Source: Buxus sempervirens (Eukaryota > Streptophyta > Magnoliopsida > Buxales > Buxaceae). From it: DNA of 64,000 nucleotides. Below are positions 14,955 through 60,967 of this stretch, piece after piece (position 1 is the first letter of the stretch; each line of letters opens with the position of its first letter). Position numbers and translations under genes: made by a program. The notes under the pieces were generated by a model that had not been told where the DNA came from, searched no databases, and saw only the letters and a program-made list of their open reading frames with translations. The stretch covers positions 32,097,829 to 32,161,828 of the forward strand of contig OX387187.1 in NCBI GenBank assembly GCA_947561395.2, read 5' to 3'.

Positions 14955-17468
14955 TGTGAGACATGGAAAAAATCACCAGAAATGATTCCCCTCCTTCAAT
15001 ACACGAGCTCAACGTAAAATGTGGGAGAGTCGCCACCCTTCAGATTTTTGGGGTGTGAATGGACACCAAAAGATTCAAAATAAGCAAAAAGAGCTAAAAA
15101 GGCAAATACTAGAGTAAAAATAACTCTACTTGAAAATCAAATCCAAATATGGGTAAGGGGATTAGATTATGAACGGGGGAAGGTGTTAGGCACCCCCATT
15201 CACCCACACAAGGTGGTTGCCAAGTGTTGTTCATGCTAAAAAATAAGAAAGTTGGCTAAAATCATAAAAAAACCTTGAAAAAGGATAAAACAAATGTATG
15301 ATATCTTCACATGAAAATCCAAATGAATTCCAGATCCTCTTTTATGTTAATATCACTTCTGGAATATTGCCAATAGATGGAAATCAAAGCAAAAGTTGCA
15401 CAAAACCAAGTTGAGTCAAATCCGGAAAATTCGGTAAAAGCAAGAACCATTTGTCTTGAAATCATTCAAATCTAATTTAAATTGAATCAAACCAAATTCA
15501 TTTGAAAGATTATGATAGATAGAAGGCTCATGTAAATTTTCAATCCATTCCGGTTAAAATCCTAGGAGTTATTCTTCTTTGAAATCTGCTGCAGGAGATA
15601 CTTAAAAGTGACAAGTGGGCAAGTTTGGAAAATCATTTAGAAACATCTGCTCCATATAAATCAATGAAATTTGGTGTGAATGAAGTATGTATGGCCATCT
15701 TTCAGATGAAAGTAGCTTCATACAAAAATTCATTCGGATGTGCCTTGGGTGACTTCCCGAACAGGCCCCGAGGATCATAGATTAACCCAGAAAAGTGCTG
15801 TTGAGCAGTTCTGAGTAAATCTGTTACCTACGACACAAATGGAGTCAAATAAATTATGAAACTAACTGAATTTGAAACTAAACTTCCAAAGGAAAACACA
15901 GAAATAAGAATCACTCGAATCGGACTTAAAACGAACACATGGCGCTCAATCGAAGTGACAGGTTCCGTATTCAGACCTGAACTGACCTATCAACTTCGAC
16001 AGAGAGGTGTCAAAAATCCACTTGATAGAAATTAATGAAATTTTACAGGCATAAACTAGACAGCCTCACCTTTCCCATGGCTCTGGAATCACTTCAAAAT
16101 TCATCCGGACGATGAAGTTACGAGTGCCCAAAGTTGGGGTACAGATGCTGTTTCGTTTTACCACTTTTGAGTAAAATCAATTTAAAACAGTGACCAAGTG
16201 TGTGTGTCCCGTGCAAGATGAATCAAAATCATTTGAAAAAGTGTTGAAGAACCTCTAGGAAAAATAGGGCACAAGTCTGGCTCACCATTCTTTCCGATTG
16301 GAGAGAATATGCCAAAAAGACCCAATATTGAACAAAAGTGCCCAAAAACCGAGAGGTTGGACCTAGAGGCCTTCAATACTCAACAAAACTTGCTTGAAAT
16401 CAATTTGAAAATCAATAAAAAATATCCCAGAATTTTTTGGGGCTATTTATTTTAGATATATCACAATGACGGAAATAGATCCAAAATATGAGCCAAATCC
16501 AACAAAACAAGAGCAATGTGTGCATGTGTAAAAATCCATTCAAGAATAATATAACAACATATAGCATGCATTCATATCAATCAAATGGGGTTCTAAAACA
16601 ACCTAGGGTTCCGTTCCATTATCGTTTCCATTAGTTCTCTCTCCCCGTTTAACGGTTCTTCGAGATAATCTTGGGGTACTTTGAATATGAAACGGTTTTC
16701 ATAGAATCAAAAGGCTTATTCCAATAAGGTTCTAACACTAGGATCAATCCCCAGTCTCGTTTCCCCTAGATCTTGCCTTCACGTTTTACAGCTAGGGGGA
16801 GTCTCGAGGTACTTTGAGTAGAGGAAGGGTTTTCACACACATAGAAGAGGCCTTATTCTACAGAAAGGTAGAAGAAGAGATTTAGGTCTAGAATGTAAAA
16901 ACAGAAAAATAAAGAGAGGTTTGAGGCTTACCTGGGCTTCTGGAAGCAAGACTGCAGCGGTTCCCCTCTTCACTCGGAGCTCTTTGATCTCCCACTTATG
17001 GCAAAAGTTCTTTGCAAAAGTTGTTGGTCATTTGCTTAAGAAGGAGCCTCCTATTTATAAGCAAAGGCTAAGGTTAGGGTTGGTGGGATGGTAGACACAA
17101 ACTAATGTCTAGAGCCCACCAACCTTAACCATAAGGCTATTTCCGAGATTTCCACTCCTTTAATGAAGGATATGATGGTAAAAAGTGAAAACTCTCGGAA
17201 AACCCTAATTTTCAGCAAAAATCATGTATCCGACATGTCAGGTCGGATACACAAGCATCTATGTGTATCCGACATATGATGTCGGATACATTAAGGTCTG
17301 CTTGTATCCGACAACTTATGTCGGATATAAAGGGATACGTTTGTATCCGACCTGAGTTGTCGGATACAAGAAGAAATGCATATTTCTCAAATTTTTGCTG
17401 GTTTCAAAGGAGATAATGATTTTTGCCTATTATTCATCATTTTTACTGTGCAATTTGGGGTGTTTACA
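14955..17468 (-). repeat. 3' LTR of the minus-strand Tat element (2514 bases)
   Basis: Starts TGTGAGACATGG and ends GGGGTGTTTACA on the plus strand; in element sense it starts TGTAAACACCCC and ends CCATGTCTCACA. It matches the interrupted LTR 52707-61069 along its whole length once that LTR's insertions are removed (about 2522 bases). The divergence is a few percent by eye, so the insertion is much older than the gag-only element inside it. In element sense U3 contains the palindrome array (17226-17367). A hairpin-rich stretch with a TATA-like CTATTTATA (read on plus near 17050-17058) follows. Confidence 0.9.
17226..17367 (-). promoter_or_regulatory. Phased palindrome array 1 (LTR U3, 4 units)
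   Basis: Four units start at 17226, 17265, 17304 and 17343: exactly 39 bases apart. Each is GTATCCGAC, 7 bases, GTCGGATAC. Three are perfect in both arms; the third has one mismatch. Spacers are ATGTCAG, ATATGAT, AACTTAT and CTGAGTT. The array lies upstream of the TATA-like box in element sense. It is shared with the other LTR (60826-60967). Confidence 0.92.
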
Positions 17469-17488
17469 ACTGTCCCTCTTTGCGGGAG
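17469..17488 (-). promoter_or_regulatory. Polypurine tract of the minus-strand element
   Basis: Adjoins the 3' LTR. Read on the minus strand it is a purine-rich CAAAGAGGGACAGT ending at the LTR start, matching the AAAGAGGGGCAGT of the gag-only element (42081-42093). It primes plus-strand DNA synthesis. Confidence 0.8.
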
Positions 17489-17990
17489 TTGAGAAGCAAT
17501 GAGCTGCAAAGATTAGACAAGCCCAAATTGCACTCCCTTAACCATGATTTGCTTGGTTCAATTTAATTTTGTAAAATAATTTTTGGATGAAGATTTGCCA
17601 AATGCCCTAACTTTAAGGGGCATCTCTCCAAGAGGTCTTAAATTCCACTGAGCTCTCGTGGCTATGAAGTGGATTTTAAGCCCAAAAATAAGATTTTTTG
17701 AAAATTGATTTTTTTATCAAACCAAGTTAAAACTTGAGTGAATATCTTCCTTTTGACCAGAACATTTCCTCAAGTTGTCCCAAATTCCACTGAGCTCTCG
17801 TGGCTATGAAGTGGATTTCCAGACAAAATAGGGTTTTTTTGTGTGAAAATAGCAGACTTTGGAGCATATTTTTTTTGCTTTTTCATTTTTTTCTTTTTTC
17901 TTTTTCTTTTTTTTTCTTTTCTCCTTTTTTTCTTTTTCTCTTTTTTCCTTTTTTCTTTTCTTTTTCTCCTTTTTTTTTTGTTTTTCCTTT
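17489..17990. other. 3' untranslated region of the minus-strand element, with T-rich tract
   Basis: Non-coding. The phrase GAGCTCTCGTGGCTATGAAG occurs twice (about 17650 and 17791). Its inverse, CATAGCCACGAGAGCTCA, recurs at 41870-41887 in the gag-only element, so this is a conserved 3' end block. A 120-base pyrimidine tract (17870-17990) explains the Phe- and Lys-rich ORFs there. Confidence 0.6.
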
Positions 17991-17991: not shown

Positions 17992-18069
17992 ATATCCGAC
18001 TTTACTCGTCGGATAAGAAGAGTCTCTCTTGTATTCAACATCGTATGTCGGATACACTATGTTATATAA
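17992..18069 (+). promoter_or_regulatory. Two-unit palindrome array and TATA box of antisense accessory gene 1
   Basis: Two diverged units start at 17992 and 18031, again 39 bases apart: ATATCCGAC-N7-GTCGGATAA and GTATTCAAC-N7-GTCGGATAC. Eight bases downstream is a TATA box (TATATAA, 18063-18069) followed by a pyrimidine-rich leader. The geometry matches the array and TATA box of accessory gene 2. It marks a plus-strand promoter inside the minus-strand element. Confidence 0.75.
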
Positions 18070-18379
18070 GTCGCGCGCGACCGCTACTTTTCATCTTTCT
18101 TTCTTTCTTCTCCGATCGCAAACCTCGGACACATCTCTCTTGTCCTTCGTCCCCGATGAATCTCCTTCCTTCTCCGGTTCCTTCTGACAACTCCTTGAGC
18201 TCCGGCGACTAGCATTGACTTCGGCGACACACCCTCACTGCTGCGACCAAGCCCTGGTTCGGCATTTTGGGTTTTTGCTTAAACCCTTGCTTCCACTCGA
18301 TTCTGCTCGACAACTTCGCCCAAATTCCGGCGACTCCTTGCTTCGTCCATCTCCCTGTTGTTCTTGCCAATCAAACCAG

Positions 18380-19592
18380 GTCAGTGCACATTTTTCTTTG
18401 AATGTCTATTTGAGGTTTCATACGGATTCATGCAAAACTTGTTGTTCCTTGGTGATGTATTTCAATTAATTGCCTTGGATCAATTATGGGTGATGATTTT
18501 TGACCAACTAGAATGCTCGACATTGAATTTCTTGGTGCTTAAGTATCATGCTATTCTTTTTCTGCAATATGCTGGGACTCCACCATGAGTTCCACGATTA
18601 ACCACACAGCTTGCACGACCACCCCATTCTACTGGACTGTAGTAGGTGAAACAATTTTGATAAATTTTGAAGCATGCATACAGTTCTTGAGTCTTCATAT
18701 CGGCAGTGACTACGAACCCTTGATTTTCTACCGGAGGTGGCTTATTGAATGGCATGATTTCTTCAGATTTTGCATTCCCAATACTGCAGATGATGTCATG
18801 TTGTTTTTCTTTTTCCTTGTTCTGTAATTTGATTTGCCTTGCTAATTCTTGGCTTGCGATTCCTTGGACCTGATAGCAATGGTTTGTTTGGTTGGTGATA
18901 TCCTTGAATTGACAGCGTCCAGGAACTTTGGATTGCCTATCGGTGATATAGACTTGCTGATTGCATGCTTTTTTGGATTGTATGTTTCTCATGCTTTGGG
19001 TATCTGAATTGCTGATGTCTTTCTAGGATTTTTCTCTGCCATTTGCTTCAGTTTTCCATTCTGTCTTACTAATCCTTGACCTACAATTCCTTTGAGGCCC
19101 ATTGCCTTGATAGTATCCAAGAACCTTGGATTGCCTGCCGGCGACATTTTCCATTGCTTTTGAATCACCGGTGGTGAAAACCTTCCACATACCATGCTAT
19201 GATCTTGATCTGATTTTAGCATGCCTTTGACCAAAATAGTGCTTCAATTGCCAGGACTTTTCCTTGATTGGCCCTTGGGTTCCACAGCTTTGGTCTTTGA
19301 TCAGTTAAGACCTTTTGCATGTAGCAGTCCTGAAATAATTTAGCAAATATTAATCCTTGTAGATATCCTTAAAAAGCTTTAGAATCAGGATTTCACCAAA
19401 TAGAAATACTCATCATTTTAGAAAACTTTGAACTGAAGCAGATAAAATACCCTTGAGACACAATTCACGATAATTTTGAAAAAAAATCATGTAAGATTCC
19501 TGATGAATGTGAACTGAAACCTAGAATAAAAGCAAAGTAAAATTTCTGATAAATTTGAACTGAAATTCATAAAACACTTCCTTGTGACTTGT
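18380..19592 (+). other. First intron of accessory gene 1
   Basis: Bounded by a CCAG/GTCAGTG donor (18379/18380) and a TTGTAG/ATGG acceptor (19593-19594). Two minus-strand ORFs lie within it (18546-18992, 148 codons; 18989-19234, 81 codons). They have protein-like composition and weak similarity to each other (KLKQMAEK-like and QIKLQNKEK-like ends), but I recognise no domain. They may be a captured gene fragment or chance. Confidence 0.4.
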
Positions 19593-19793
19593 AGATGGCT
19601 AGGAGTTGTTCCCGTGTTCGGGAGGAGGCTGACCCTGCTGATCAGCCCTCCACTTCGCGGGCTCGGACAGAGGCGAGTTCTAGCGCCACCCTGTCGGAGC
19701 CCTCAGATGTTTCCAGAGAGAGCTCTGCTGAGGGCTCTGCTGAGGTAGGCTTCCCAATTCTCTCTTTCTTTTCTTGCTTTCCTTGAAACCGAC

Positions 19794-21944
19794 TGTGCGC
19801 ACGTCCCGGCGAGGCGCCGCATGGAATGCGTTGGGGTTTCGAGGTATCGGAGTCGCCACTGCCTGAGATGTGCAGGCAGACACTTGGGTGCCTATACAGG
19901 TCTAAGATTTGCTGGTCTGCGTCTTTTTTAGAGATTCGGGCAAGTTCTAGGTTACGGTCCGGGGAAGTCCGAAAACACCCCGGTCCGCTCCGTCAAATGA
20001 CGGGTCCCTTGGGTTTCCCTGGTTCTGAGTCAACTTAGTCTCACCCTGATCCTAGCCCAGCATGTATCAGATTAAGTCTGGTAGGGACCTTTGCAGGTGT
20101 AAGTCCCTTTTATTCATTTTTATCTTTTTATCCATTAAAGTGAAGTGGGTCGGAGGTGGGCCCCGTTGGAAGGCCCACAGTGGATCAAATTGGACTGTCA
20201 AATCCAAGGTCTATTTTGGGTTTTTGGGGTTGCTTGAAATTATGTGGGCCCCTGTGTGGGCCTACAGTGGTGCAATACTTAAAAAAAAACCTTGTTGATC
20301 TCCTACCAATCAAACCAAAAAAAATGAGGTGAAATGACAACATATTAAGAAAGGATTAAGGGGACTTAATAGGGGTACATTAGAATTTGAAGATGAGGAA
20401 GGGAACATGCTCCCTTTTTGAAAATAAAGAGAATGCCTTTGAATCACACTTTACCCCATACCATCGAATCATCTTTCTGTCATGGTGACTTCTTTGTATG
20501 TGGGAAAAGGGGAGAAAAATCCAACACATTTGCTAGAACAAAAGTTAGTGATTCCTGAAGAATTTCATTGATAAAAGTAGTTCATCTTTTTATATTTGCA
20601 ATGAAAACTTACCAGAAGCTTACCTAGGATTGCTTGAAGGTGTTGAATCCCTTTGAAGCTCTTCCGGCAGCGTAACAGCTCTATTTCAAGTTTGGGGGAA
20701 AGAACTTTAGACTTCTTTTGGGTTTGGAATGAAGGGGGGATGATGGAGAGGTTTTTTGGTATATTTGGACAGAACTTGGGGGCTTTGGCAAGGTTATAAA
20801 GAGGCTTTGGACAGCATAACGGCTCTACTTCAAGCTCAAAAGGTGATTTCTAAACCTATCTTTGGTTTGCAAGAAAATAAAAGAGATTTGGGTTTGACAG
20901 GGGTTGGCTGTAGCAGGGGTTTAGACAGGGAAGAGAGAGGGTAGAGAGGGGGCTAGCTTGCTTGAGGGGAGATCAAGGAGGAAGACAGAAAGGGGAGAAG
21001 AGAGGGGTCCTTTTTTTTCTCCTCCAAAGAATGGGGGTAGCCCTCCTTTTATAATGAAAAAAATGAACCAAAAGTAAATTATAATCACACTTGTTGACCA
21101 AATTTTAATTTTATATTTAAATGTAACTAAAACTTAAATAACTTTTAATCTTATCTTGGACACCTCATGGGGGACACGTATCCCCCATGTGCAAAATGCT
21201 TAATATTTTATTATTTCCTAATATCTTTTATTTTCTAATTATCTAAATTACAAGATATTTTTAGATTTTCTTATTATTTTATTTAGATCTTTTTGGTTTT
21301 TGAGCACATGCATGCTTTGATTTTTTATTTTCTTTTTTCTTTATTTTAAACCTCTTAATTAGGTGTTGTATGAAAATATTATTATTTTAATTGAAGATTC
21401 TTTTCTTTTTGCTGTTTTTGCCACATGTGCAGATTTTCTGAAACTTTGACTGCCCATATTTCTTTCATCTGGTATCCGATTTCACTCAGTGACGTTGGAA
21501 TCAGCTCGAGATTCCCTATCCACTGAACTGGATTTTAGCAGCAAATTCGGGTTTTTTAGCAGAAGTGCAAATTCGTGTCCCGGAGCCAGTTTTGCTCATA
21601 TCTCCTTATCCGGGACTCCGATTCCAGCAAACTCAGTTGCGTTGGAGTCGTGTCGATGCGCCCTTTTTGCTGATATCCAATTGAGCAGCTAATTCGGAGT
21701 TCTGCAGAAAGCCGATTTCTGCTATTTCCAAATTTGACCAGCCCATAACTTCTTTATCCGGACTCCGATTTTAGCAAACTCAGTTGCGTTAGAATCGTAT
21801 CGAAGTCCTCTTTCCGATGGTATGAAGTTTGGTGGTTAATTTACACCCAATCAAAAAGTCAACTTTTTGAGCCCTTCAGGTTTGACTTTTTCAATTAGGG
21901 TTTTATTCTTTCATTTTTGGGGGTGCAAAAATGAGGTGCTGACA
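19794..21944 (-). mobile_element. Solo LTR in intron 2 of accessory gene 1, TSD CCGAC
   Basis: Bounded by TGTGCGCACGTCCC and GAGGTGCTGACA, with CCGAC at 19789-19793 and 21945-21949. Read on the minus strand it starts TGTCAGCACCTCATTT, a typical gypsy LTR start. It has no gag or pol. It lies wholly between the donor at 19745 and the acceptor before 21975. Inside, a block around ACTCCGATTYYAGCAAACTC is repeated (about 21615 and 21765). It lacks the palindrome array. Confidence 0.87.
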
Positions 21945-24754
21945 CCGACTTCGCTTATTCATTTCTGTTTTTAGCCTGTTGTGGCTCCTGCTCGAGGTCA
22001 TGGTAGAGGCCGAGAGAGAGGCGGAGGCCGAGTTAGTGAGAGGGGCTGAGGTCGAACCGGAGCTTCAGGCCAAGAGGGTGCTGCTGTAGCCTTACACCTA
22101 GGGATCTCTGCGGAGCTGAGAGCATCTGTTCATGATACAGAGCTCCGTAGTGGTTTGGATAGCCACCCCTCCATGTGCATCTGGGCCGATGTCCCTCTTC
22201 CGTATCCTCCTTCTCATCTACGAGGCAGTTGGGGGAGATTTAGTGAGTTGGCGCAGACACTTTCTCCGGCACTCAGGCGTGAGTTTGGGAGGTGCCACCT
22301 GGATTATTTTCTCAGCATCCCTTCATTCCGAGCCGATCGTCCCCTCATCTTCGCTATGATGGAGCAATATTTTCCGGAGACCCAGTCATTCCATCTGTAG
22401 GACGTGGAGCTGGGGATCCGTCCTTCTGATTTTGTGATGATCACCGGCATTCCTCTGATGGGGTGGACTATTATTTTGGATCGGCCTTCAGTGGCGGACA
22501 TTGGCCTTCTCTTGGGCTTTCAGGACCTGCCTCATGCTGCTTGGGACGGGCGGAGTGGTCATATCTCGATTAGCTGGCTGCGGGAGAGCCTTACTCGGCA
22601 TTATGAGGGGAGACATGCGACCATTACTGTGGAGGATGCAGCCTTTGCACCCATCTTCCGACATGTGTTTCTGCTTCTTTCAGGAGGATACAACTAGTGT
22701 TAGTCCCCTATTTTTGGATGCTCTGACAAATCTCCATTAGACCCGCCAGTTAGCATGGGCTCGGCTCATATATGGGACTATCTTGGCCGGGCTATGCAAA
22801 GTAGTTCGGGGCCTGGCCGCTCCGAGAGGTGATGGAGTTAGCTGCCGATTCTTCTGGCAGATTTTGCAGGTACTAAATTCATCTGTCTTGTCTTATTCCT
22901 TAGGCTTTATCTTCTTTATCCCTGACTGATTTTTCTTTTGCCAGGTGTTTATGTACATCTACATGACTTTCTTCCGCCCATCCCCAGTGCCTGGTGTCGC
23001 GGAGTTCCTTGTTGCCTTGCGGTGATCGGCCCAGGTCCGAGATGCAGATAGGAGTCAGCCCCGTACTGCCTGGGTTCACTTGGATCGTGTCTGACGACTT
23101 GATGTAAATTCTTCGCCCCTTTTCTTTTTTATTTCTTTCCCTGTACCTTGACTGTATCTGACCATTTTTTCTTTTTTGCAGATTATCCTGGCACGCTTTG
23201 ATGACGTGGATATTGGGGTGGCCCGTGAGATGATAGTGCAGGATGCTTTTGATAGAGATCTCCGACGTCAGCCCTACCAGTGCTTCCTTGGGAGGCTTGG
23301 TGGGGTGATGTATTTAGGAGAGCGCCTGTACTATCAGTACACAGGCACACTTCGTATCCCAGTTCCCCCTCCTCCTGTGGGTCCTGACACACTCCTGCCT
23401 GGTTCTGATGTTGATCAGTTTGATCATTATCAGGAGGCAGATGAGCTCACAATAGCTGGGGATTATGACGAGTGGACCCAGAGAGTATCCATTGGGTGCT
23501 TGATGGATCGACCTACCCGTACTGGAGTGACAGAGATCGGCGGGATCTATATCCGGGTCCATGATGATACTGTGAGTTTTGTGATCTTCATATTTTTATC
23601 TGATTTCCTTCAACTCTGTATTTATGACCCTAATTCTGTTCTTATTGGCAGGTACATGAGTTGAATGCTTTGCGGGACCGGTTCCAGAGCCAGCGGGCCG
23701 CGATCGATGATATGATCGCAAAGCATGACGCGGTCGTGGCCCAGAGGGATGCCTGGATCAGAGAGCTGGAGGCTCTGGTTGTCGAGCTTCAGGCTAGACA
23801 GGTATTTGATTCTTTACAATTTTATCTCTTTCATTTCCATGTTTCTGTTGTTTTGATATAAACTGTTTTGGCTTTTGCAGGGCCCAGTCCCAGATTAGGA
23901 CGATGCCTTTGAGCCCGATATTCCTGTTCCTGATCCGTCTCCGGTTCAGGCTGCCGATCCTGAGGATGCCCCAGCTGCTGACCCGGTTGTAGCTGCTGCT
24001 GTAGTTGATCCCGTGGGCCCCTCCTCTCCAGTGGTGGTTCCTGAGCCGGAGGATATCCCTGCTTCTGACCCTGATCCGGTCGCATCTCCTGTACTTGCCA
24101 CTCCTGTGGAACCTGGGGCTCCTGCGGACCCTGCCGGCACCTCGTCTCCTGTAGTGGCTCTTGATCCTGCTCCTGAGGTCCCTGGTAAGTTTTCTTTAGT
24201 TTCCTCTCCTTGGTTTATTTTGACGCTTCCATTTCTGATTTTATTCCTGTCGACCCAGATATTTTTGTTCCTGGTCCTTCTTCTGATACTGCCGGGCCTT
24301 CTGGAGATGCGGGAGCGGAGACCGCTGTGGCTGAGGGTCCAGTTGAGCCTGAGGCTTCCTCCCCAGATTCTGCTCTTGATCTGCCTCCTAACCTCTCGGA
24401 CTACTGCTTGGAGTACCAGCTTCAGTCCATTGTGGGCCGGAGACTGCGTTACATGGCCGAGTGTCTGTTGGCATATTCTAGGCGTCGATCTCCTCGAGGG
24501 AGAGGTCGCAGAGGAGCGCGGGGTAGAGGACGCGGGGGTGATCCTTCACAGTAGTAGGAGATTAGGATTTCTATTTTTCATTATCATTGTACAAACTAGA
24601 CTTATATATATGAAAAGACTTTTTATTCATTCTCTCTTGTGTTGCTCTTTTTTCCTTCTCATTTTTATGCAATTATAACTTGTACACAGGTGAAACAGGT
24701 AAAAAATTCAGATTTTTCTCCATTTTCTCTTTTTTTTTTTTTGCATTTTTCTTT

Positions 24755-24916
24755 GTATCCGACCTATCAGATCAGATAAATTGATATTTGTTTGTATCTG
24801 AAAAGTTATACCGGATACACACAAATTTACTTGTATCCGGCATTTTCCATCGGATATGAAGAGATTCTTTTGTATCCGATCTGATATATCGGATACATTA
24901 AAAAATGCTATAAATG
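24755..24916 (+). promoter_or_regulatory. Phased palindrome array 3 and TATA box of antisense accessory gene 2
   Basis: Four units start at 24755, 24794, 24833 and 24872 (39-base steps). The last is perfect with a changed inner base pair (GTATCCGAT-N7-ATCGGATAC). The others are more diverged. Eleven bases after the array is a TATA box (CTATAAATG, 24908-24916), about 110 bases ahead of the ATG at 25027. Confidence 0.85.
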
Positions 24917-25026
24917 CAACCAGCCTCGGGATTTGTGTATTTTTTTACGAGTTTTTGAGTTTAGAAAACCCCTTTTTCGCCTTTTTCTTCCTCTCATTGA
25001 TTCTTAGCTTGCTCCCATCACCTCCA

Positions 25027-26265
25027 ATGGATTCCGGATCATCTTCTGCCCTACCATTGTCTGTCCACGCAGCCTCCCCTGCAAAACAACTGTATGCCAG
25101 GTTAGGGAGTGGGAGAAGTCGACTTGGCCTTTATCTCAGTTGTATGCCAGGTTAGGGAACGGGAGAGGTTGGCCCCTATGATTTTGGCAGGGATGTACCA
25201 GGCTTTGACTGACTGTTATTACAGGAAGAAGAAGCGCTTCCTATCATGTGCTCCCATCCTGTAGGTAAAAAAAAATTTTTTTTTTCTTTTGCTTGCCTTT
25301 TTTTTTTTTTTTTCTTTTTTTGCTTTTTTTTTTCTTTTACAATATGCTGAAATATCCCTCGTCCTTTGCAGCTTTGGTTACTTGACCACTTGAGTCAGAT
25401 TGAGGAGATCAATCGACACTTCTTCCCCAGCTTGAAGGTTCCTATTTTGATGAGCAACCGGGGGTGTCTTGACATTCCAGGAGGTAAACAGGGTTGGTTT
25501 ACTTTCTTGGCTACACTCTAGGATGATCAAGTGAGGTGGCCTGGTACTTATCAGCCCAATGCAGAGACCGTGATCAGCTTTCGAGACCGCAATTTTTTGG
25601 TTCTGGCTGGCTTGAGTCATGCTGTGCTTTACCTTCCTTTGTTGGTTCTTTGTTAGTTCAGAGCGACCCAGGGGATTATAATCCCAAGTGGGTACGAAAA
25701 CCATCTTGGGCCACTTTCACCAGCCACCATGAAGCTGAATGCTTGGTTGATGAGGGAGTGGTCCTATGTTCATTTTATGCGGAGCCTGGTCTTCTCAGAG
25801 TCCCATCTGAAGGACTATCTCTTTTGGATCAAGGAGCAGATACTGAGTCAGGCCCTAGAACCCGAAGATCCTCCTGCAGTTTTGGCTCCTACTTATGAAG
25901 ACATCCTGGAGTCCGAGAGAGCTTCTCACAAGCGACTTCAACAGATATGGGTACGAGAGGCCCAGGAGCTTAGGATACGAGGCCTTGACATGGAGAGGCA
26001 ACTTGCAGAGCAGGTATCCCGCCGTCTTGCTATGGAAAAGCAACTTGAGAAGCGGAGGCAGGCTCGCTACCTTGAAGTCCGAGTACTGCGGTAGAAGCAC
26101 CAGGATGCTTTAGCCAGCCTTAGGAGCATCAGAATCAGGCAGACTCTTTTAGATGAGGTCATTTCCTTCTTGAGTGACCCCGCTGCAGAGGGGGTTTCTG
26201 GAGTTATTGCAGCTCAGGCAGCTCGGATTCGAGAGCTTGAGGAGTGGCTAGGAGATAGAGACTAG
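25027..26265 (+). pseudogene. Antisense accessory gene 2: second PMD-like/coiled-coil ORF, decayed
   Basis: Opens with a short ATG exon (MDSGSSSALPLSVHAASPAK) behind its own TATA box. It is followed by a T-rich intron ending TTTGCAG near 25370 and a long 3' exon to a TAG at 26263-26265. The long exon encodes WLLDHLSQIEEINRHFFP and NAWLMREW pieces that look like the second half of a plant mobile domain. A charged, probably coiled-coil region follows (LDMERQLAEQVSRRLAMEKQ, about 25987-26046). In-frame stops near 25520, 25654 and 26092 show decay, and a small direct repeat (TGTATGCCAGGTTAGGGA at about 25092 and 25141) marks a local duplication. The N-terminal half is shorter than in accessory gene 1, so it may be a truncated relative. 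I do not know its function. Confidence 0.5.
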
Positions 26266-30200: not shown

Positions 30201-30543
30201 TATGTTTGTGAGCCACTCGGGGTATGTAGAGACTGCCAAAAATCCGGCTTGAAATTGCTTGACCACTTCGTCCTTGACCTTCAAGGTCCATTCAGGTTTC
30301 AATCTTCTCAGCTTCTGCTTAATTGGCTTAACCCCTGGCAAAATTGGCAACTTGTGCACCACCATATCAGTGTCCAGCCCCGGCATATCCCGATACGACC
30401 AAGTGAACACATCCTTGTAGTTTGCCAAAAACCGTAACATTTCATTTTGATGCACATCAGACAAGCATGCCCCGATTTTCACTATTTTTGGGTCATCTTC
30501 GGTTCCAAGATTTATTGAAATGGTCTCCTCAATATTAGGTTGG
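27266..30543 (-). pseudogene. pol: pol, 3' part: RT, RNase H, archaeal-type RNase H, integrase (Tat lineage), decayed
   Basis: Read from 30543 downward. RT begins after a leader containing DMPGLDTDMVVHKLP, and its catalytic box YVDD lies near 29856-29867. The Ty3/gypsy RNase H follows to about 29090. Next is a second, archaeal-type RNase H (FFDGAANMNG, NNIAEYEA, YGDSNL), the mark of the Tat lineage. Integrase follows, with a His-His-Cys-Cys finger (HGGVCGPHMNGH...CHQC) and the D,D,E core (GIDVIG, SDNAS, GAVEAANK), and a C-terminal tail to a TGA at 27266-27268. Inactivating changes seen: TAG at 29382-29384 at the start of the first RNase H, a stop and frameshift near 29225-29245, TAG at 27386-27388 where Trp is expected, and severance from protease by the insertion at 30543/44880. 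Confidence 0.9.
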
Positions 30544-30991
30544 TGTAGACACCCCAAAATTGCATGACTTTTGATAAATCTTGAAGGAGAGAAATATTTT
30601 ATTGGAACTTTCAATTCTTTGCATTGGGTTTGAGATACTTAACCCATTTGAATCCAAAACGGAAAAGGAAAAGGCCCGAATTCAATCTTTTGTGCAAAGT
30701 CAAACTTTTTCCGGTTGAATTTTGTTGACTTTTGACCCCAGAAAATGAAATATTTTTTAAAGCCAGATTTCAAGATAATTTTTCCCGGTAATCAGGTTTT
30801 TAGCCATGTTATTGCATAAAAGAATTTTTTGAGATTTTAAATCTTGGCGAATACCTTGGTTTTAACATATTGAACCTTTTTTCCAGACCTGAAAAATCGG
30901 AATTTTGCCTAGAACTGGAAAGTTGACTTTTTATTCACTTGGAATTTGGGTCTGGAACTATTTTTAATGGATTCAAATGGGGGGGTGTTTG

Positions 30992-31073: not shown

Positions 31074-31134
31074 TATTGCCTGTGTTAAAATTCGAATTGC
31101 CTGTGTTAAAATTCGAAAAAAGGCTTTTTTCCTT

Positions 31135-31276: not shown

Positions 31277-31296
31277 GCTAGTTTTGCTCAAAATTA

Positions 31297-35600: not shown

Positions 35601-35609
35601 GGCCATTTG

Positions 35610-49082: not shown

Positions 49083-50395
49083 CTTGGAATATTCTAGGTC
49101 TTCCAAGCATCCCAAAAATTTTGGATTTGATTGGTTCTCGTGACCACACAAAGGTTTTTGGAATATTCTAGGGCTTCCAAATGTCCCACAAATTTTGATT
49201 TTGATTGATTCTTGTGACCAAAAAAAGGTTTTTTGGAATATTCTGGGGCTTCCAAATGTCCCAAAAATTTTGATTTTGATTGATTCTTGTGACCAAACAA
49301 AGGTTTTTTTTTGGAACATTCTAGGCTTCCAAATGTCCCATAAAATTTTGTTTTGAATGGTTCTCGTGACGAAACAGAGGTTTTTTGGAATATTCTAGGG
49401 CTTCTAAATGTCCCATAATTTTTTTGGTTTTGATTGATTCTTGTGACCAAACAAAGGTTTCTTGGAATATTCTGGGGCTTCCAAATGTCCCACAAATTTT
49501 TTGATTTTGATTGGTTCTTGTGACCAAACAGAGGTTTTTTGGGAATATTCTGGGACTTCCAAATGTCCCATTAATTTTTGATTTGAATGGTTCTCGTGAC
49601 CAAACAGAGGGTTTTTGGAATATTCTGGGGCTTCCAAATGTCCCATAAATTTTTTTGATTTTGATTGGTTCTCGTGACCAAATAAAGGTTTCTTGGAATA
49701 TTCTAGGGCTTCCAAGTGTCCCTCAAATTTTTGATTTGAATGGTTCTTGTGACCAAACAAAGGTTTCTTGGAATATTCTGGGGCTTCCAAATGTCCCATA
49801 AATTTTTGATTTGAATGGTTCTCGTGACCAAACAGAGGTTTTTTGGAATATTCTAGGGTTTCCAAATGTCTCATAAATTTTTTTTGATTTTGATTGGTTA
49901 TCGTGACCAAACAAAGGTTTCTTGGAATATTCTGGGGCTTCCAAGTGTCCCTCAAAATTTTGATTTGAATGGTTCTCATGACCAAACAGAGGTTTTTTTG
50001 GAATATTCTGGGGGTTCCAAATGTCCCATAAATTTTTTTGATTTTGATTGGTTCTCGTGACCAAACAAAGGTTTCTTGGAATATTCTGGGGCTTCCAAAT
50101 GTCCCATAAATTTTTGATTTGAATGATTCTCGTGACCAAACAGAGGTTTTTTGGAATATTCTGAGGCTTCCAAATGTCCCATAATTTTTTTTTTTGATTT
50201 TGATTGGTTCTCGTGACCAAACAAGTTTCTTGGAATATTCTGGGGCTTCCAAGTGTCCCTCAAAATTTTGATTTGAATGGTTCTTGTGACCAAACAAAGG
50301 TTTCTTGGAATATTCTGGGGCTTCCAAGTGTCCCTCAAATTTTTGATTTGATTGGTTCTTGTGACCAAACAAAGGTTTTTTTTTTTGCTGAATTT
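49083..50395 (-). repeat. Leader tandem array of the minus-strand element, about 17 copies of 75-78 bases
   Basis: Each unit contains, on the plus strand, TTGGAATATTCTGGGGCTTC followed by CAAATGTCCCATAAATTTTT and TGATTTGAATGGTTCTCGTG. It is the counterpart of leader repeat A of the other element. Units carry the stem TTTGGAA/TTCCAAA or CTTGGAA/TTCCAAG. Two or three unit types alternate (tails CCATAAA and CCTCAAA), giving a higher-order period. A unit near 75 bases keeps several minus-strand frames open, which creates the long ORF at 49404-50453; I do not regard it as a gene. Confidence 0.85.
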
Positions 50396-50665: not shown

Positions 50666-50807
50666 GTATCCGACATGAAATGTCGGCTAAGGCTATGTCT
50701 TATTGTATCCGATATAAATGATCGGATATATGCATAGGCCTTTGTAACCGATAAAGTGTGTCGAATACGAATAAAACTATGTTTAATCGACCTGAGTTGT
50801 CGGTTAA
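50666..50807 (-). promoter_or_regulatory. Phased palindrome array 7 (leader of minus-strand element)
   Basis: Units start at 50666, 50705, 50744 and 50783 (39-base steps). The last unit is TTAATCGAC-N7-GTCGGTTAA, with both arms shifted away from the standard at positions 1 and 4. Its spacer CTGAGTT is the inverse of AACTCAG, the first spacer of the other leader array, so position and orientation are conserved. Confidence 0.88.
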
Positions 50808-52704: not shown

Positions 52705-55700
52705 GTTGTGAGACATGGAAAAAATCACCGGAAATGATTCCCCTCCGTCAACACATGGGCTCAACGTAAAATGTGGGAAAGTCGCCACCATTCAGATTTT
52801 TGGGGTGTGAATGGACACCAAAAGATTCAAAATAAGCAAAAAGAGCTAAAAAGGAAAATACTAGAGTAAAAATAACTCTACTTGAAAATCAAATCCAGAG
52901 ATGGGTAAGGGGATTAGATTATGAACGGGGGAAGGTGTTAGGCACCCCCATTCACCCACACAAGGTGGTTGCCAAGTGTTGTTCATGCTAAAAATTAAGA
53001 AAGCTGGCTAAAATCATAAAAAAACCTTGAAAAAGGATAAAACAAATGTATGATATCTTCACATAAAAATCCAAATGAATTCCAGATCCTCTTTTATGTC
53101 AATATCACTTCTGGAATATCGCCAATAGATGGAAATCAAAGCAAAAGTTGCACAAAACATAGTTGAGTGAAATCCGGAAAATTCGGTAAAAGCAAGAACC
53201 ATTTTTCTTGAAATCATTAAAATCTAATTTAAATTGAATCAAACCAAATTCATTTGAAAGATTATGATAGATAGAAGGCTCATGTAAATTTTCAATCGAT
53301 TCCAGTTAAAATCCTAGGAGTTATTCTCCTTTGAAATCTGCTGCTGGAGATACTTAAAAGTGACAAGTGGGCAAGTTTGGAAAATCATTTAAAAACATCT
53401 GCTCCATATAAATCCATGAAATTTGGTGTGAATGAAGTATGTATGGCCATATTTTAGATGAAACTAGCCTCATACAAAATTCATTCGGATGTACCTTGGG
53501 TGACTTCCCGAACAGGCCTCAAGGATCATATATTAACGCAGAAAAATGCTGTTGAGCAGTTCTGAGTAAATCTGTTACCTATGACACAAATGGAGTCAAA
53601 TAAATTATGAAACTAACTGAATTTGAAACTAAACTTCCAAAGGAAAACACAGAAATAAGAATCACTCGAATCGGACTTAAACGAACACATGGCGCTCAAT
53701 CGAAGTGACAGGTTCCGTATTCAGACCTGAACTGACCTATCAACTTCGACAGAGAGGTGTCAAAAATCCACTTGATAGAAATTAATGAAATTTTACAGGC
53801 ATAAACTAGACAGCCTCACCTTTCCCATGGCTCTAGAATCACTCCAAACTTCATCCTGACGATGAAGTTATGAGTGCCCAAAGTTGGGGTACAGATGCTG
53901 TCCCGTTTTACCACTTTTGAGTAAAATCAATTTAAAACAGTGACCAAGTGTGTGTGTGTCCTATGCAAGATGAATCAAAATCATTTGAAAAAGTGTTGAA
54001 GAACCTCTAGGAAAAATAGGGCACAAGCCTGGCTCATAATTCTTTCCGATTGGAGAGAATATGCAAAAAAGACCCAATATTGAGCAAAAGTGCCCAAAAA
54101 CCGAGAGGTTGGACCTAGAGGCCTTTAATACTCAACAAAACTTGCTTGAAATAAATTTGAAAATCAATAAGAAATATCCCAGAATTGTTTGGGGCTATTT
54201 ATTTTAGATCTATCACAATGACGGCAATAGATCCAAAATATGAGCCAAATCCAACAAAACAAGAGCAATGTGTACATGTGTAAAAATCCATTCAAGAATA
54301 ATATAACAACATATAGCATGCATTCATATCACTCAAATGGGGTTCTAAAACAACCTAGGGTTCCGTTCCATTATCGTTTCCCTTAGTTCTCTCTCCCCGT
54401 TTAACGGTTCTTCGAGATAATCTTGGGGTACTTTGAATATGAAATGGTTTTTGTGAGACATGGGAAAAAAATCACCCGGAGATGATCATCCCTCCGTCAA
54501 CACGCGGGACTCGACGTAAAGAGTGGGAGTCGCCACCATCCATTTGTTTAGGGTGTGAATGGACACCAAAAGAATTAAAAACAAACAAAAAGAGATAAAA
54601 AATGCTAAAAGGCAAATTCTAGAGTAAAAATAACCCTACTTGAAAATCAAATCCAGAGATGGGTAAGGGGATTAGATTATGAACGGGGGAAGGTATTAGG
54701 CACCCTCACTCACCCACACAAGGTGGTTGCCAAGTGTTTATTCATGCTAAAAGAAAATAGAAAGCTTGCTAAAAAATCATGAAAACCTTGAAAAAGGACA
54801 AATATATGATATCTTCACATGAAAATCCAAATGAATTCCAGATCTTCTTTTATGTTAATATCACCTCTGGAATATCACAAAAAGATGGAAATCAAAGTAA
54901 AGATTGCACAAAACCAAGTTGAATCAAATCCGGGAAGTTTGGTAAAAGTAAAGCAATTTCTCTTGAAATTAATCAAATCCAATTTTAAATCAAATCAAAC
55001 CAAATCCATTTGAAAGATTAGGGTAAACAACAGTCTCATGCAAAATTTCAATTAATTCTGGTTGAAATTCTAAGAGTTATGGCTCTTTTAGGGTTGCTGC
55101 TGGAGAAAATTAAAAGTAGCAAGTAGGCAACTTTGGAAAATCACCTAGAAAAATCTACTCCATAGAAATCCGTGAAATTTGGTGTCAACGAAGTCTGTAT
55201 GGCCATCTTTTAACAAAAGCTAGCCTCATACAAAAACTCATTCGGATGTGCCTTGGGTGACTTCCCGAACAGGCCCCGAGGATCACAGATTGACCTAGAA
55301 AAGTGCTGTTGAGCAGTTCTGAGTAAATCTGCTTTCCACGACACAATTTAAATCAAAAAAATATGAAACAAATTGGATTTAAAAATAGACTCATAAAGGA
55401 GTGCCCAGAAACAAAAATCACTCAAATCGGATTTAAAACGAACACATGGCGCTCCGTCGAAGTGACAAGGTCTGTATTTAAACCTGAACTGACCAATCAA
55501 CTTCGACAGAGAGGTGTCAAAAATCTGCTTGATAGAAATTCATGATTTTTGGTGGGTATAAACTAGACAGCTTCACCTTTCCCATGGTTCTAGAATCACT
55601 CCAAAATTCATCCGGATGATGAAGTTATGAGTGTCCGAAGTTAGGGTACAGTTGCTGTCAAGTAAACCCTATTTTGAGTAAAACCAATGCAAAAATGTGA

Positions 55701-55991
55701 CAAAGTGTGTGCAATTCGTGCAAGATGAACACAAAACCTTTAAAAATCATTTTTAAACATTCCAGATTTGATTGAGGCCATTTATTTGAGATTTATCACA
55801 ATGAATGTAATAAATCCCCAAATGTGAGCCTATCCCGCCAAAATAGTGCAAAGTATGTGCAAGTGTGAAAATCCATACAAGATCAATACAACAATATAGC
55901 ATGCATACATATTCATCAAAATAAGGTTCTAAAAGAACCTAGGGTTCCGTTCCATTATCGTTTCCCTTTGTTCTGTCTCCCCGTTAAACAC

Positions 55992-56137
55992 GGTTCTTCA
56001 AGATAATCAAGGGTACTTTGAATATGAAACGGTTTGCATTCAATCAAAAGGCTTATACAAGACGGGTTCTTCAAGATAATCAAGGGTACTTTGAATATGA
56101 AACGGTTTGCATTCAATCAAAAGGCTTATACAAGATG
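55992..56137. repeat. 73-base tandem duplication in the solo LTR
   Basis: Two near-identical copies (55992-56064, 56065-56137), each beginning GGTTCTTCAAGATAATCAAG. Private to this copy. Confidence 0.9.
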
Positions 56138-56597
56138 GGTTCTAGTACTAGGGTCAATCCCCAGTCTCGTTTCTCCTAGATCCCGCCTCCACGTTTTACG
56201 GCTAGGGGGAGTCTCGAGATACTTTGAGCCGGGGAAGGATTTCCACACACAAACAAGGCTTTATTCTACAGAAAGGTAGAAGAAGAGATCTAGATCTAGG
56301 AAATTAAATACAGAAAATAAATGAGGGTTGAGGCTTACCTGGGGTTCTGGAAGCAATCCGGCAGCGGTTCCCTTCTTCACTCGGAGCTCTTCGATCTCTA
56401 AATTCTTGGCCATTTGCTTGAGGAGGAGCCTCCTATTTATAGGCAAAGGCTAGGGTTGTTGGTAGACACAACTTAATGTCTAGAACCCCCAACCTTAACC
56501 CTAGGGCTGTTTCCGAGATTTCCCCTCATTTAATGAGGGATATGATGGTAAAAAGTGATTTCTATCGGAAAACCCTAATTTTTAGAGCAAAACTTAT

Positions 56598-56739
56598 GTA
56601 TCCGGCATATCAGGCCGGATACACAAGGGCCTTAAGGTATCCGGCATATAATGCCGGATACACTAAAGCTTTCTTGTATCCGACATTTTCCACCGGATAC
56701 AAAGAAGGGTACTTGTATCCGGCCTGAGTTGCTGGATAC
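56598..56739 (-). promoter_or_regulatory. Phased palindrome array 8 (solo LTR)
   Basis: Units start at 56598, 56637, 56676 and 56715 (39-base steps). Three have the CCGGC form; the third mixes CCGAC on the left with ACCGG on the right. Spacers ATATCAG, ATATAAT, ATTTTCC and CTGAGTT. Confidence 0.92.
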
Positions 56740-57668
56740 AAGGAAAAAAGCCTTTTTTCCAAATTTTAACACAGGCAATACTTATTTACATGTAATATCG
56801 TTTAAGTAAATGTCCTCATATTTTTTAATCTCCATTTACTTAAGATATTACATGTAAATAAGCAAACACCCCCCCATTTGAATCCATTAAAAATAGTTCT
56901 AGACCCCAAATTCCAAGTGAATAAAAAGTCAACTTTCCAGTTCTAGGCAAAATTCAGATTTTTCAGGTTTGGAAAAAAAGGTTCAATATGTTAAAACCAA
57001 GGTATTCGTCAAGATTTAAAATCTCAAAAATTCTTTTATGCAATAACATGGCTAAAAACCTGATTACTGGGAAAAATTATCTTGAAATTTGGCTTTAAAA
57101 AATATTTCATTTTCTGGGGTCAAAAGTCAACAAAATTCAACCGAACAAAGTTTGACTTTACACAAAAGATTGAATTCGGGCCTTTTCCTTTTCCGTTTTG
57201 GATTCAAATGGGTTAAGTATCTCAAACCCAATGCAAAGAATTGAAAATTCCAATAAAATATTTCTCTCCTTCAAGATTTATCAAAAATCATGCAATTTTG
57301 GGGTGTCTACAGTTTTCATAGAATCAAAAGGCTTATTCCAATAAGGTTCTAGCACTAGGATCAATCCCCAGTCTCGTTTCCCCTAGATCTTGCCTTCATG
57401 TTTTACGACTAGGAGGAGTCTCGAGGTACTTTGAGTAAAGGAAGGGTTTTCACACACATAGAAGAGGCCTTATTCTACAGAAAAGTAGAAGAAGAGATCT
57501 AGATCTAGAATGTAAAAACAGAAAAATAATGAGAGTTTTGAGGCTTACCTAGGCTTCTGGAAGCAAGACTACAGCGGTTCCCCTCTTCACTTGGAGCTCT
57601 TTGATCTCCCACTTATGGCAAAAGTTCTTTGCAAAAGTTGTTGGCCATTTGCTTAAGGAGGAGCCTCC

Positions 57669-60640
57669 TGTAAAATCCCTAATTTTCTGGAAAATTAAAA
57701 ACTTATTTTTCTTAGGGATTAAATTAAGGAAAATTTGTGTTTTGCAGAAAAAGGGATTATGGGTAAATTCGGAAAGGTTGCTTGAGCATGTTGGAATATT
57801 TAAAAGTCAAAAAGGTATGAGAAATTCCATAATTGTAATTAGTAATTTTATGCTTGGATGAGGTGGCAAAAAAAATTAGTGGAGCTAACTTAATTTGAGC
57901 TGCTAATGTAGGGAGCTTGGTGTGGTGGCATATCAGCGGATGGTATTTAAGTTTCTGCTGGAGCGGCAACTATAAAAACAGGTCTTTAGAAGCTGCTGTT
58001 CGTTTTGGCATTGTTGGAGTCGAGCCTGGAATTTCAAAGAGGAGTAGTGGAAGCTGGGGATTTGCTGGAGCAGATCTGGAGGTGTGGAGTAACCTGAGTT
58101 TTGGTGCTGCCAAAGTCCTGTTCGAGAGAGAGAGAGTTGAGGAGATCAATTCGGCAGGCATGGAATTCCTCTAGATGCTGCAAATCTGGAGAGGTTAATT
58201 TGGAGTTCAGGTAAGGAAGGGTTCAAATGATTCTCATATGGTTAATTTTATCAAGCAAAGATTTCATTGGAAGAGATCTTATCCAATTCTACAAAAATTC
58301 AGATCTCTATTGATCGTTCAGTTTTGGAGACAGAGAAGTGGTCGAATGCAATTGAGGAATTGAGGAAAATTATTGGAGATTGGGCCTGAGCATTTAAGGT
58401 AAGTAGCAGTTTTACTTTGCTGATTTTCGTATGATTGGATTTGCAGCATGGAATTGTTAGATTTAGAAAAACAGTTTGATCGAAGGATTAGGAGGTGCTG
58501 TGTTTGTGTAATGTGCTGAATGACTAGTTAGATCTAAAGTAGAGTAAAATTTTAAAGAGAAGACTCATAAAATTTTCTGGAGAAATTTTGTAAGTAAAAC
58601 CTTTGTTTTGTGAAGGGTTGTATGCAGTAGAAGTTGAATTGAACTTCAGATTTGCAGTGGTAGCACGAGTGTGACCTTAGAAATATTAATTCAGATTATA
58701 GTTCAGCAAACCTCACTGTACAGAAACTCCTAAACATGATTTCAATGTAGGGAGCACTTCTTAATCTGGTTTTTGAATGACTTAAATTGAATTATGGATA
58801 ATGTAGGACTGAATTGAATCTTGTTTTCTCTGTTGTGTAATGGCCATAACTTCTAGTTTCGTTTAGCATGATCTCCTTGATTAACTAATTCCAAATGAGT
58901 GTTAAAGGTTGGTTTTGAGGTTTAAGATTACTCTAGAAGTGGTTCGAATGCTAAGCATTCGGTTAGTCCTAATGAATGTTACATTAGTCAAATCTAAATC
59001 TGGAAATTTGCATTGGTGCTGAGTGGTGAGGTCTGGAACCTACCTTCCCAGAGGTTGGCGCCAGCCTGATTTCTAGCAATTTTTCAAACAGTAGCTTATT
59101 TGTTTATGTAGTTAAATATTAGAGTGTTGATGAAGGAAGTGATCCATTTGTGTCCATACTCAGTTGTTGCTGTTTTTTTTGATTGAGGTGAATGCATGGG
59201 TGACGAGGTCTGTTCAAATGTTTAGTTGGCTAAATTAGTCCAATTAGGATACATGAATTTAACTAGATTTCTGTTGGAAATAACATGGATGTCAAGTGTT
59301 GTAAGTAGCATGTATTGAGCTGGTCTAGAGGTTTACCATTGAACTGTGGCACCCAATTTAGCATATGGAATTGTTTTTCCTGTTTTCTGGTTAGTCATGG
59401 ATGCCTATCATGAGCAGATTTTTTTTTGAAGATGGATCAAACAAGAATTAAAGGTAAGTTGCTGTTTTTATTAAGTGAATTGAATTGTGTTGGGAGTGTA
59501 GAACAGGGGAATGGACTGATTAGATACATTGGGAATTAAGGCCTTATTGTTATGGCAGAATTTTTAAAATGAATAGCATGGATATATGTTGCTGGTGCCC
59601 AGGTTTATTGAGTATGGCTGAGTGGTGTTCAGCTCATTCTCAATAATTGGATGTGGTGTTGCAGTTTAGTTTCAGCTCACTTAAATATTTTGTTGAATGT
59701 TACATGAGTTTTTCTTAGGAATTGCATTAGTTGATAAATTGCTGAACTTTTAAATGGACTGGGAAGAATTTAGAGGCTGTTATACTGTCATGAGTTACTG
59801 TTGGTGGGAATATGTTAGGTGCTGGTATATCATGATGAATCTAAACAGGAAAATAAGTCTAAGTTAAGAAAATAAATCTGATTAAGGGCTTAAGACTGTA
59901 ATGGTTTAAATTCTATAAGAGTAGTGGTGTTCCACGATTAACCATAAATAATATACTTAGGAATTGCTGTTATAGTTGCTGGAAAGAAGTAATGGGCATT
60001 GCTGTTGGCCTATCTACTTAGAGGTTAGCAGCAACTTTCAAATAGAAAAATTAGTATCACTTATGGGAAGTGAGTTAGAGTTTAAGCTCAAGAGACTAAA
60101 TTAGAAGTGGTATTCAGTAGGTAGGTGTGGGTGAGCAAAAAAATTTAGCAGCATAGGAGAAGTTATACATGCTGAATTCTGAACATCTGGGTAGATGTCA
60201 AGTGCTGAAGTAGTTGATGGCAGCCTTGGTCGATTTCTTTATTAGCTATTTCCAATTTCAAAGGTGGGAAATGATATCTAAGAAAGATATCTAAATATTG
60301 AAACCTTCTCCCAGGCATATAAATAATTGCAAACTACACCTGGGAAGTTACTTAAAGGATTGTATATATATAAATCAGTAATTTAGAAGTGACCTCATGT
60401 TGCTAAGAACTACTAAACTAGAGTATCTAGGAATTGTGGAGCATTGTTGAGTGGCACTCCACTCATGCTCATTAGTTGCGTATCAAAGACTAAATTCTTA
60501 CTGTTAGGAAATAGAAGAAGCTGAATTGAAGGTAATGGAAGTGTAAGAAAATCTGGACCTAGAGGAGAGTGGGGGTGTTTGGTGCTGTTATGTATGGCTG
60601 ATTATATACATATATAAGCTTAGGTTCAAGGGGCGTTACA
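57669..60640 (+). mobile_element. Solo LTR, 3.0 kb, TGTAAAA...GGCGTTACA type, TSD CCTCC
   Basis: Starts TGTAAAATCCCT and ends GGGGCGTTACA, with CCTCC at 57664-57668 and 60641-60645. It interrupts the 5' LTR at GGAGGAGCCTCC/TATTTATA, beside the TATA box of that LTR. No gag or pol frame. Related in its ends to 1142-5585 and 10174-13164, but the interiors differ, so it is a different family of the group. Confidence 0.9.
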
Positions 60641-60825
60641 CCTCCTATTTATAGGCAAAGGCTAGGGTTAAGGTTAAGGTTGGTGGGATGGTAGACACAA
60701 ACTAATGTCTAGAGCCCACCAACCTTAACCCTAAGGCTATTTCTGAGATTTCCACTCCTTTAATGAAAGATATGATGGTAAAAAGTGAAAACTCTCGGAA
60801 AACCCTAATTTTCAGCAAAAATCAT

Positions 60826-60967
60826 GTATCCGACATATCAGGTCGGATACACAAGCATCTATGTGTATCCGACATATGATGTCGGATACATTAAGGCCTG
60901 CTTGTATCCGACAACTTATGTCGGATATAAAGGGATACGCTTGTATCTGACCTAAGTTGTCGGATAC
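60826..60967 (-). promoter_or_regulatory. Phased palindrome array 9 (5' LTR of minus-strand element)
   Basis: Units start at 60826, 60865, 60904 and 60943 (39-base steps), CCGAC form, matching array 1 unit for unit; units 3 and 4 have one mismatch each. Confidence 0.92.

Follow-up and report, generated by a model that had tools for sequence, protein, structure and literature searches.

A 39-base-phased palindrome array at long terminal repeats, leaders and candidate antisense promoters of nested Ty3/gypsy elements in Buxus sempervirens, apparently changing in step with the element

The window analysed here is a 64,000-base stretch of the Buxus sempervirens genome (assembly GCA_947561395.2, contig OX387187.1, positions 32,097,829 to 32,161,828, forward strand) that holds two nested long terminal repeat (LTR) retrotransposons and, within them, a recurrent array of short palindromes. 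Element architecture was established from self-comparison of the window, Pfam domain matches and ends read by eye. The outer element, which carries later insertions, lies on the minus strand (14955–61069, ends by eye) between the target-site copies CCTGT and CCTCT, alike at four of five positions. Within it sits the inner element (30544–44879, plus strand), bounded by the target-site copies GTTGG and with LTRs that are 99.7% alike. A third copy of the family, a solo LTR on the minus strand (54452–57311, target-site copies GTTTT), lies inside the outer 5' LTR. Pfam matches in the outer pol part (27386–30638, minus strand) ran in the order reverse transcriptase (RT; RVT_1), RNase H (RT_RNaseH_2), second RNase H (RVT_3) and integrase core (rve), with RT ahead of integrase as in Ty3/gypsy and not Ty1/copia elements. 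We take the succession of RT, RNase H, second RNase H and integrase to be typical of Ty3/gypsy and Tat elements, and on the domain order of the outer pol we assign both nested elements to Ty3/gypsy, as Tat-like. The inner element has gag (37035–39170, plus strand, PF03732); its 3' part contained no frame of 150 residues and no likeness of at least 100 bases to the outer pol, and the Pfam search of this part covered one piece. The outer 3' LTR (14955–17468) measures 2,514 bases and the inner 5' LTR (30544–33330) 2,787 bases.

Two plus-strand genes, antisense to the minus-strand outer element, were recognized by eye at about 18070–26265, between the outer pol and the 3' LTR. Both appear broken, and their extents (gene 1, 18070–24551; gene 2, 25027–26265) are approximate and read by eye. 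A piece of gene 1 (22050–22397) gave a weak match to PMD (PF10536, E=0.049, 13.2 bits, below the cut-off of 34.9), and a piece of gene 2 (25106–25261) matched DUF7745 (PF24924, E=0.00068, 19.2 bits, below the cut-off of 26). None of the antisense-gene pieces searched reached the Pfam cut-off for PMD. TRP28 (PF04195) found no match in 16 plus-strand pieces, of which a single one covered 18000–21900, in a search that covered some of the frames of genes that appear broken.

An earlier note on this DNA, made from the letters alone, had listed 34 palindromic units in nine arrays, and all nine were recovered at the positions given there, eight with four units and one with two, every step being 39 bases. 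Five of the arrays lie in LTRs. In the U3 region of the outer element they occupy 17226–17367 (3' LTR, minus strand) and 60826–60967 (5' LTR, minus strand), the second being a near copy of the first; in U3 of the inner element they occupy 31135–31276 (5' LTR, plus strand) and 42685–42826 (3' LTR, plus strand), which are identical; and the solo LTR has one at 56598–56739 (minus strand). Each leader contains a four-unit array, at 34715–34856 in the inner element (plus strand) and at 50666–50807 in the outer (minus strand). The remaining two lie upstream of the antisense genes, the two-unit array ahead of gene 1 (17992–18055, plus strand) and a four-unit array ahead of gene 2 (24755–24896, plus strand). 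Since paired LTRs account for the rest, the non-redundant arrays number seven, in four kinds of place. The layout described in the note, a 9-base arm, a 7-base spacer and the inverse arm, was likewise seen, although many arms depart from perfect pairing: mismatches affect 36 of 306 arm pairs over all nine arrays, 24 of these in the leader and antisense-gene arrays. LTR sequence upstream of the array extends over 591 bases in the inner element (30544–31134) and 572 in the solo LTR (56740–57311), against just 101 in the outer element. A four-unit array is 142 bases long, near nucleosome size.

Detection was assessed in several ways. The pattern GTATCCGRC-N7-GYCGGATAC with up to 3 mismatches recovered 32 of the 34 units in the window, with no match in 100 shuffles. 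The units at 34715 and 50783 were too diverged for it and came to light by listing in 39-base steps. A position-weight model was trained on 52 half-sites, those in the non-redundant set of seven arrays, which thus score well by construction. Scanned with it, the 34 units scored 15.2 to 32.8 and the best other site in the window 8.7, a value inside the range of maxima from 10 Markov-shuffled windows (2.1 to 10.9). The two-unit array pattern had no match in a viral contig collection and found six bacterial loci in a genome contig collection, five with one match and one with two overlapping matches. The one-unit pattern was present in three viral contigs, one of which, inspected across 180 bases, had one unit and no array. 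Searches of viral contigs with RT and gag yielded no relatives.

The note had also placed the arrays in U3, in the leader of each element and ahead of the two antisense genes, and the element map and a scan for TATA-like boxes agree with this. In the outer 3' LTR, TATAAA (17054–17059, minus strand) lies 166 bases past the array in the sense direction, and in the inner 5' LTR the same motif (31444–31449, plus strand) lies 167 bases past it. Across all five LTR arrays the distance is similar: 166 and 172 bases in the outer element, 167 and 167 in the inner, and 156 in the solo LTR. At the antisense genes the boxes are much closer. TATATAA (18063–18069, plus strand), a candidate core promoter for gene 1, begins 7 bases past the 17992 array, and TATAAA (24909–24914, plus strand), a candidate core promoter for gene 2, 12 bases past the 24755 array. 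TATAWA occurs in the window at about 1.1 sites per kilobase and strand, so isolated matches could arise by chance; the recurrent position in the LTRs together with two boxes at the antisense genes is unlikely to have done so. The leaders are less clear. No TATAWA was found within 250 bases of the inner leader array on either strand, and the outer leader array has two downstream in sense, at 93 and 116 bases, inside an A/T-rich run.

Within the arm, position 8 distinguishes the two elements. In the outer element it is A in 26 of 28 half-sites and G in two: A in 8/8 of the LTR array, 8/8 of the leader array, 4/4 of the 17992 array and 6/8 of the 24755 array. In the inner element it is G in all 16 (8/8 in the LTR, 8/8 in the leader), and the solo LTR has G in 7/8 and A in 1/8. 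When the outer and inner LTR arrays were compared, 8 of the 11 arm differences fell at position 8, which had changed in 8/8 half-sites. The leader arrays had also changed there in 8/8 half-sites, with A in the outer and G in the inner element just as in the LTR. Spacers and linkers followed another pattern: the two leader arrays are alike at 46 of 70 columns, and each matches the LTR array of its own element at just 31 and 32 of 70. That the leader arrays are closer to each other outside the arms than to their own LTR speaks against copying between arrays as the cause, and the A or G state is apparently shared by LTR and leader without it. Fisher's test on half-sites gave 3.7e-10 for the A/G contrast, a value to be read with the caution that half-sites are not independent. 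We also considered deamination decay as the source of the A state; by reasoning it is unlikely, the CpG of the arm being nearly intact (positions 6 and 7, 50/52 each).

Conservation was concentrated in the half-sites. Arm positions 2–3 are TA in 52/52 half-sites and positions 5–7 are CCG in 49–50 of 52. When the LTR array of an element is set against its leader array, 58 and 60 of 72 arm columns agree (81–83%), compared with 32 and 31 of 70 other columns (44–46%). The outer and inner LTR arrays differ outside position 8 at 3 of 64 arm columns and at 27% of spacer and linker columns; for the leader arrays the corresponding figures are 11 of 64 and 34%. Pairing between the two arms of a unit was not specially preserved. 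There were 32 within-unit arm mismatches, compared with 33.3 when partners were shuffled inside arrays (P of no more than observed, 0.37), a test of low power where arms hardly vary, and departures from pairing in sense over all nine arrays comprised 15 A-C, 11 G-U and 10 other among 306 pairs. Half-sites read separately, rather than stems, thus seem to be what is kept, as expected for a dimeric DNA-binding protein. Four orthologous comparisons, not independent because they have sequences in common, showed no insertion or deletion (indel) within an array, where the flanks predict 2.1 to 2.6 each; for the outer–inner LTR and leader comparisons jointly, absence of indels has P 0.011.

The arrays resemble each other beyond their arms. 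Three of the LTR arrays match the 24755 array at 39–40 of 70 spacer and linker columns (19–21 in shuffles), the LTR and leader arrays of one element at 31–32 of 70 (19–20 in shuffles), and the two leader arrays with the 24755 array at 29 and 33 of 70 (21 in shuffles; P 0.02 and 0.002). Among 36 comparisons the highest score, 18 of 28 spacer and linker columns, fell to the match of the two-unit 17992 array with plus-strand units 3–4 of the 24755 array (the next scored 15), a level reached in 0 of 2000 shuffles; this match outside the arms indicates that the two antisense promoters are probably related. Some of the likeness between arrays outside the arms is also present in reverse orientation, as would be expected from a dyad that spans the whole array. 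Such a dyad was found in the LTR and 24755 arrays, where 17–21 of 35 spacer and linker pairs are mirrored (9–11 in shuffles; P no greater than 0.007 in all five tested), and not in the leader arrays (11–12 of 35 pairs, P 0.30–0.43). With five possible centres and seven arrays, 35 dyad tests were made; apart from the whole-array dyad, P fell below 0.05 in the 24755 array with unit 3 as the centre and in each of the two outer LTR arrays with linker 1 as the centre. The four-unit array could have arisen by inverted duplication of a two-unit half. Taken over all places, a single module that was copied, rather than separate inventions, appears to underlie the arrays, and the likeness beyond the arms makes it likely that unit number and phase were inherited. 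Two arguments of the earlier note are weakened accordingly: the sequence around the palindromes, held there to be otherwise unrelated, proved similar above shuffles, and the fixed number and spacing of units, offered as a sign of function, are not independent evidence among copies of one module.

A block that stands mostly near predicted start points and appears to have changed in step within each element suggests one DNA-binding protein for the whole element. We propose that the arrays are copies of one module serving as operator or enhancer sites for dimers of a single DNA-binding protein that co-evolves with the element and is possibly the product of one of its antisense genes, a proposal to which we give about an even chance, or a shade better. 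The half-site TATCCG(A/G) occurs in inverted pairs, usually four, and each pair would be a putative dimer site. With the module at the LTR promoter, the antisense-gene promoters and the leader, a single protein could act on the whole element at once. Binding by a protein, its dimeric form, its origin in the element and any direction of effect are what we infer from these sequences; the binder might be an activator, an anti-silencer or an autoregulator, and its effect could equally be repression. Its preference for the base after CCG would have shifted between the two subfamilies, with the half-sites of LTR and leader shifting along, and the parallel switch from A to G points to a binder evolving with the element. 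The likeliest source would be the element family itself, in the form of one antisense gene with the module before its own TATA-like box; because the module lies directly before the TATA-like boxes of the antisense genes, their products are natural candidates, and autoregulation is possible. A dimeric protein coordinating all transcription units had been put forward in the note as well. Half-sites that are kept, a phase without indels, the absence of any sign that stems are kept instead and the shared A or G state favour such a protein, whereas for the leader arrays a promoter is not established.

Several observations weigh against a co-evolving, element-encoded binder. Whole arrays, four against two, gave a Fisher value of 0.067, just two elements show the A/G contrast at several places, and the 24755 array is mixed (A 6/8, G 2/8). 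The 150 bases that adjoin the LTR array are likewise without indels. Whole-array identity is close to that of the flanks in the LTR comparisons (0.789 vs 0.732, 0.873 vs 0.870 and 0.746 vs 0.793) and falls below it in the leader (0.697 vs 0.859), where the arms, alike at 53 of 72 columns, do not exceed the neighbouring 100 bases in conservation (78/99 and 88/99). The antisense genes appear broken, with domain matches below the Pfam cut-offs, and self-comparison found no likeness to them in the inner element, whose binder would then have to act in trans.

Drought-response elements have CCGAC as their core, and some one-repeat MYB sites have TATCC. The arrays might be an enhancer for a host transcription factor, copied to each promoter, with A and G reflecting two host paralogues or two tolerated variants; we regard this as possible, at clearly less than an even chance. 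Sireviruses lend it support, for they carry CGG-CCG motifs before the LTR TATA box and an internal gene, from which the authors mainly recovered sites of stress-related factors, and the Citrus Sirevirus motif contains the half-site ATCCGGC (PMC2829016, in excerpt, as are all papers cited here). A host factor by itself, however, does not predict the same base in separate arrays of one element. That common base could instead come from gene conversion between an element's own arrays, which we judge the least probable of the explanations; the spacers and linkers of the leader arrays track leader ancestry (46 vs 31–32 of 70), and conversion as the cause of the A or G state is disfavoured because the leader arrays match each other over their own LTR outside the arms. 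An inert module spread by duplication is scarcely more probable. It would fit arrays that are alike beyond their arms and, taken whole, no better conserved than their flanks, but would leave unexplained why half-sites were kept as spacers and linkers diverged (81–83% vs 44–46% between LTR and leader), why the arrays contain no indels and why a switch at position 8 is seen in every one of the 16 half-sites compared.

It is also conceivable, though improbable, that the units work as hairpins of RNA or single-strand DNA, used by the element or feeding small-RNA silencing. Predicted folds are indeed strong in the four of nine arrays that were folded (31135–31276 at -92.1 kcal/mol, z -13.19; the three others at z -6.05 to -7.50), the LTR and 24755 arrays have their whole-array dyad, and in comparisons between LTR arrays, 1/15, 3/13 and 2/15 of the mirrored spacer and linker pairs that are paired in both have changed on both sides. 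For the palindromes of maize Sireviruses, mapped small RNAs are on record (PMC10760457). Yet co-variation between the partners of a unit does not exceed that in shuffles (again with low power where arms hardly vary), G-U is not favoured over A-C (11 vs 15 of 306 pairs), the leader arrays lack the whole-array dyad, and a satellite in the inner leader, by contrast, does show stem co-variation. Despite the strong folds and the mirrored pairs changed on both sides, hairpin function was for these reasons of co-variation and G-U pairing rejected as the principal explanation.

The closest known counterpart is the repeated motif (RM) of Sireviruses, palindromic and with a CGG-CCG signature, which lies before the LTR TATA box and the env-like gene of these Ty1/copia elements (PMC2829016); both there and here CCG/CGG palindromes recur ahead of an internal gene as well as ahead of the TATA box of the LTR. 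The Citrus Sirevirus RM, AATCCGGCTWRCCGGATT, has a half-site nearly equal to the G-type found here (PMC2829016). The carriers differ, however, being Ty1/copia in the one case and Ty3/gypsy in the other, and so does the order of half-sites, since most Sirevirus RMs read CGG then CCG and the A-type units here CCG then CGG. The RM consensuses listed span 10–20 bases, with at least 8 copies per element (PMC2829016). A 39-base phase, a leader array and an antisense-gene promoter, all present or proposed here, were not seen in the excerpts of PMC2829016. In maize, small RNAs are in excess at the clusters of Sirevirus palindromes (PMC10760457). Among the titles and abstract openings of the matches listed from open-licence PMC papers, such arrays were not described apart from the Sirevirus work. 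What appears to be new is that one module with a constant phase of 39 bases is found in Ty3/gypsy elements, in the LTR and the leader as well as at antisense promoters, and has apparently switched in step. This would point to palindromic CCG/CGG control sites having arisen, or having been recruited, in each of the two major groups of LTR retrotransposons of plants.

In VANDAL transposons the noncoding regions repeat short motifs to which VANC proteins bind, and the motifs evolve in step with the subfamily (PMC5735166, PMC10398659). Here too a short motif recurs in several noncoding regions and appears to change with the subfamily, a pattern seen in two elements only; the position-8 state shared by LTR and leader of one element would fit a common co-evolving binder of that kind. 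VANDAL elements are, on the other hand, DNA transposons, and their motif YAGTATTAY is non-palindromic and lies in one orientation, in tandem repeats that change. For VANC, both binding and a loss of methylation have been demonstrated (PMC5735166, PMC10398659). A stronger form of our proposal would be VANC-like control in an LTR retrotransposon, in which an antisense-encoded, possibly PMD-like protein binds the operator in the leader, at the LTR promoter and at the promoters of the antisense genes, while operator and protein specificity diverge jointly from one subfamily to the next, so that each family unsilences only itself; we think this unlikely, if worth stating. Genes with a common promoter motif, the DOWN motif, require the PMD proteins MAIN and MAIL1 for their expression (PMC7156037), but these are host proteins, and the PMD link of the antisense genes here is weak.

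Antisense genes are a feature of Retand elements that is also present in the outer element here, where two were recognized by eye. Those of Retand mostly encode TRP28, proposed to be a regulator, and 97% of clusters encode TRP28 (PF04195) (PMC11963269). Retand LTRs are 315–1,194 bases long (PMC11963269), a range outside which the LTRs measured here fall, and the excerpts of PMC11963269 do not describe a shared promoter motif. In maize Grande, the antisense gene is driven by a promoter upstream of the gene (PMC7264820). Antisense genes of Grande, RIRE2 and Retand were published between 1997 and 2006; what they do is still described as undetermined (PMC7264820, PMC11963269). A DNA site common to LTR and antisense-gene promoters, apparently diverging with the element, would provide a direct handle on whether these genes encode regulators.

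The leaders contain further repeats. In the inner leader, a satellite at 35601–36866 consists of 41-base units in 30.7 copies. Its loop AGCC[TC][TC]TGAA has 31 matches, 28 as AGCCTCTGAA and three as AGCCTTTGAA, flanked by 6-base stems of three types (TCTAAA/TTTAGA 17, TCTATA/TATAGA 8, TTTGAA/TTCAAA 4), with 29 of 31 fully paired. The stems change in step, and this satellite looks like an RNA hairpin array. The outer leader has a satellite at 49083–50381 with units of 75–154 bases and a comparable mirrored unit, CTTGGAA ... TTCCAAG, whose loop is related-looking by eye. The leader arrays themselves (34715–34856 and 50666–50807) are more diverged outside the arms (46/70) than the adjacent 100 bases, with no indels, possibly through fast turnover. 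The outer 5' LTR is broken by the solo LTR and by a second insertion (57669–60640), which by eye is about 3 kb long, has TG..CA ends and target-site copies CCTCC, and adjoins the TATA box of that LTR. Just outside the outer element, 13571–14326 encodes a leucine-rich repeat part of a plant disease-resistance-like gene (PF25019, E=9.5e-31).

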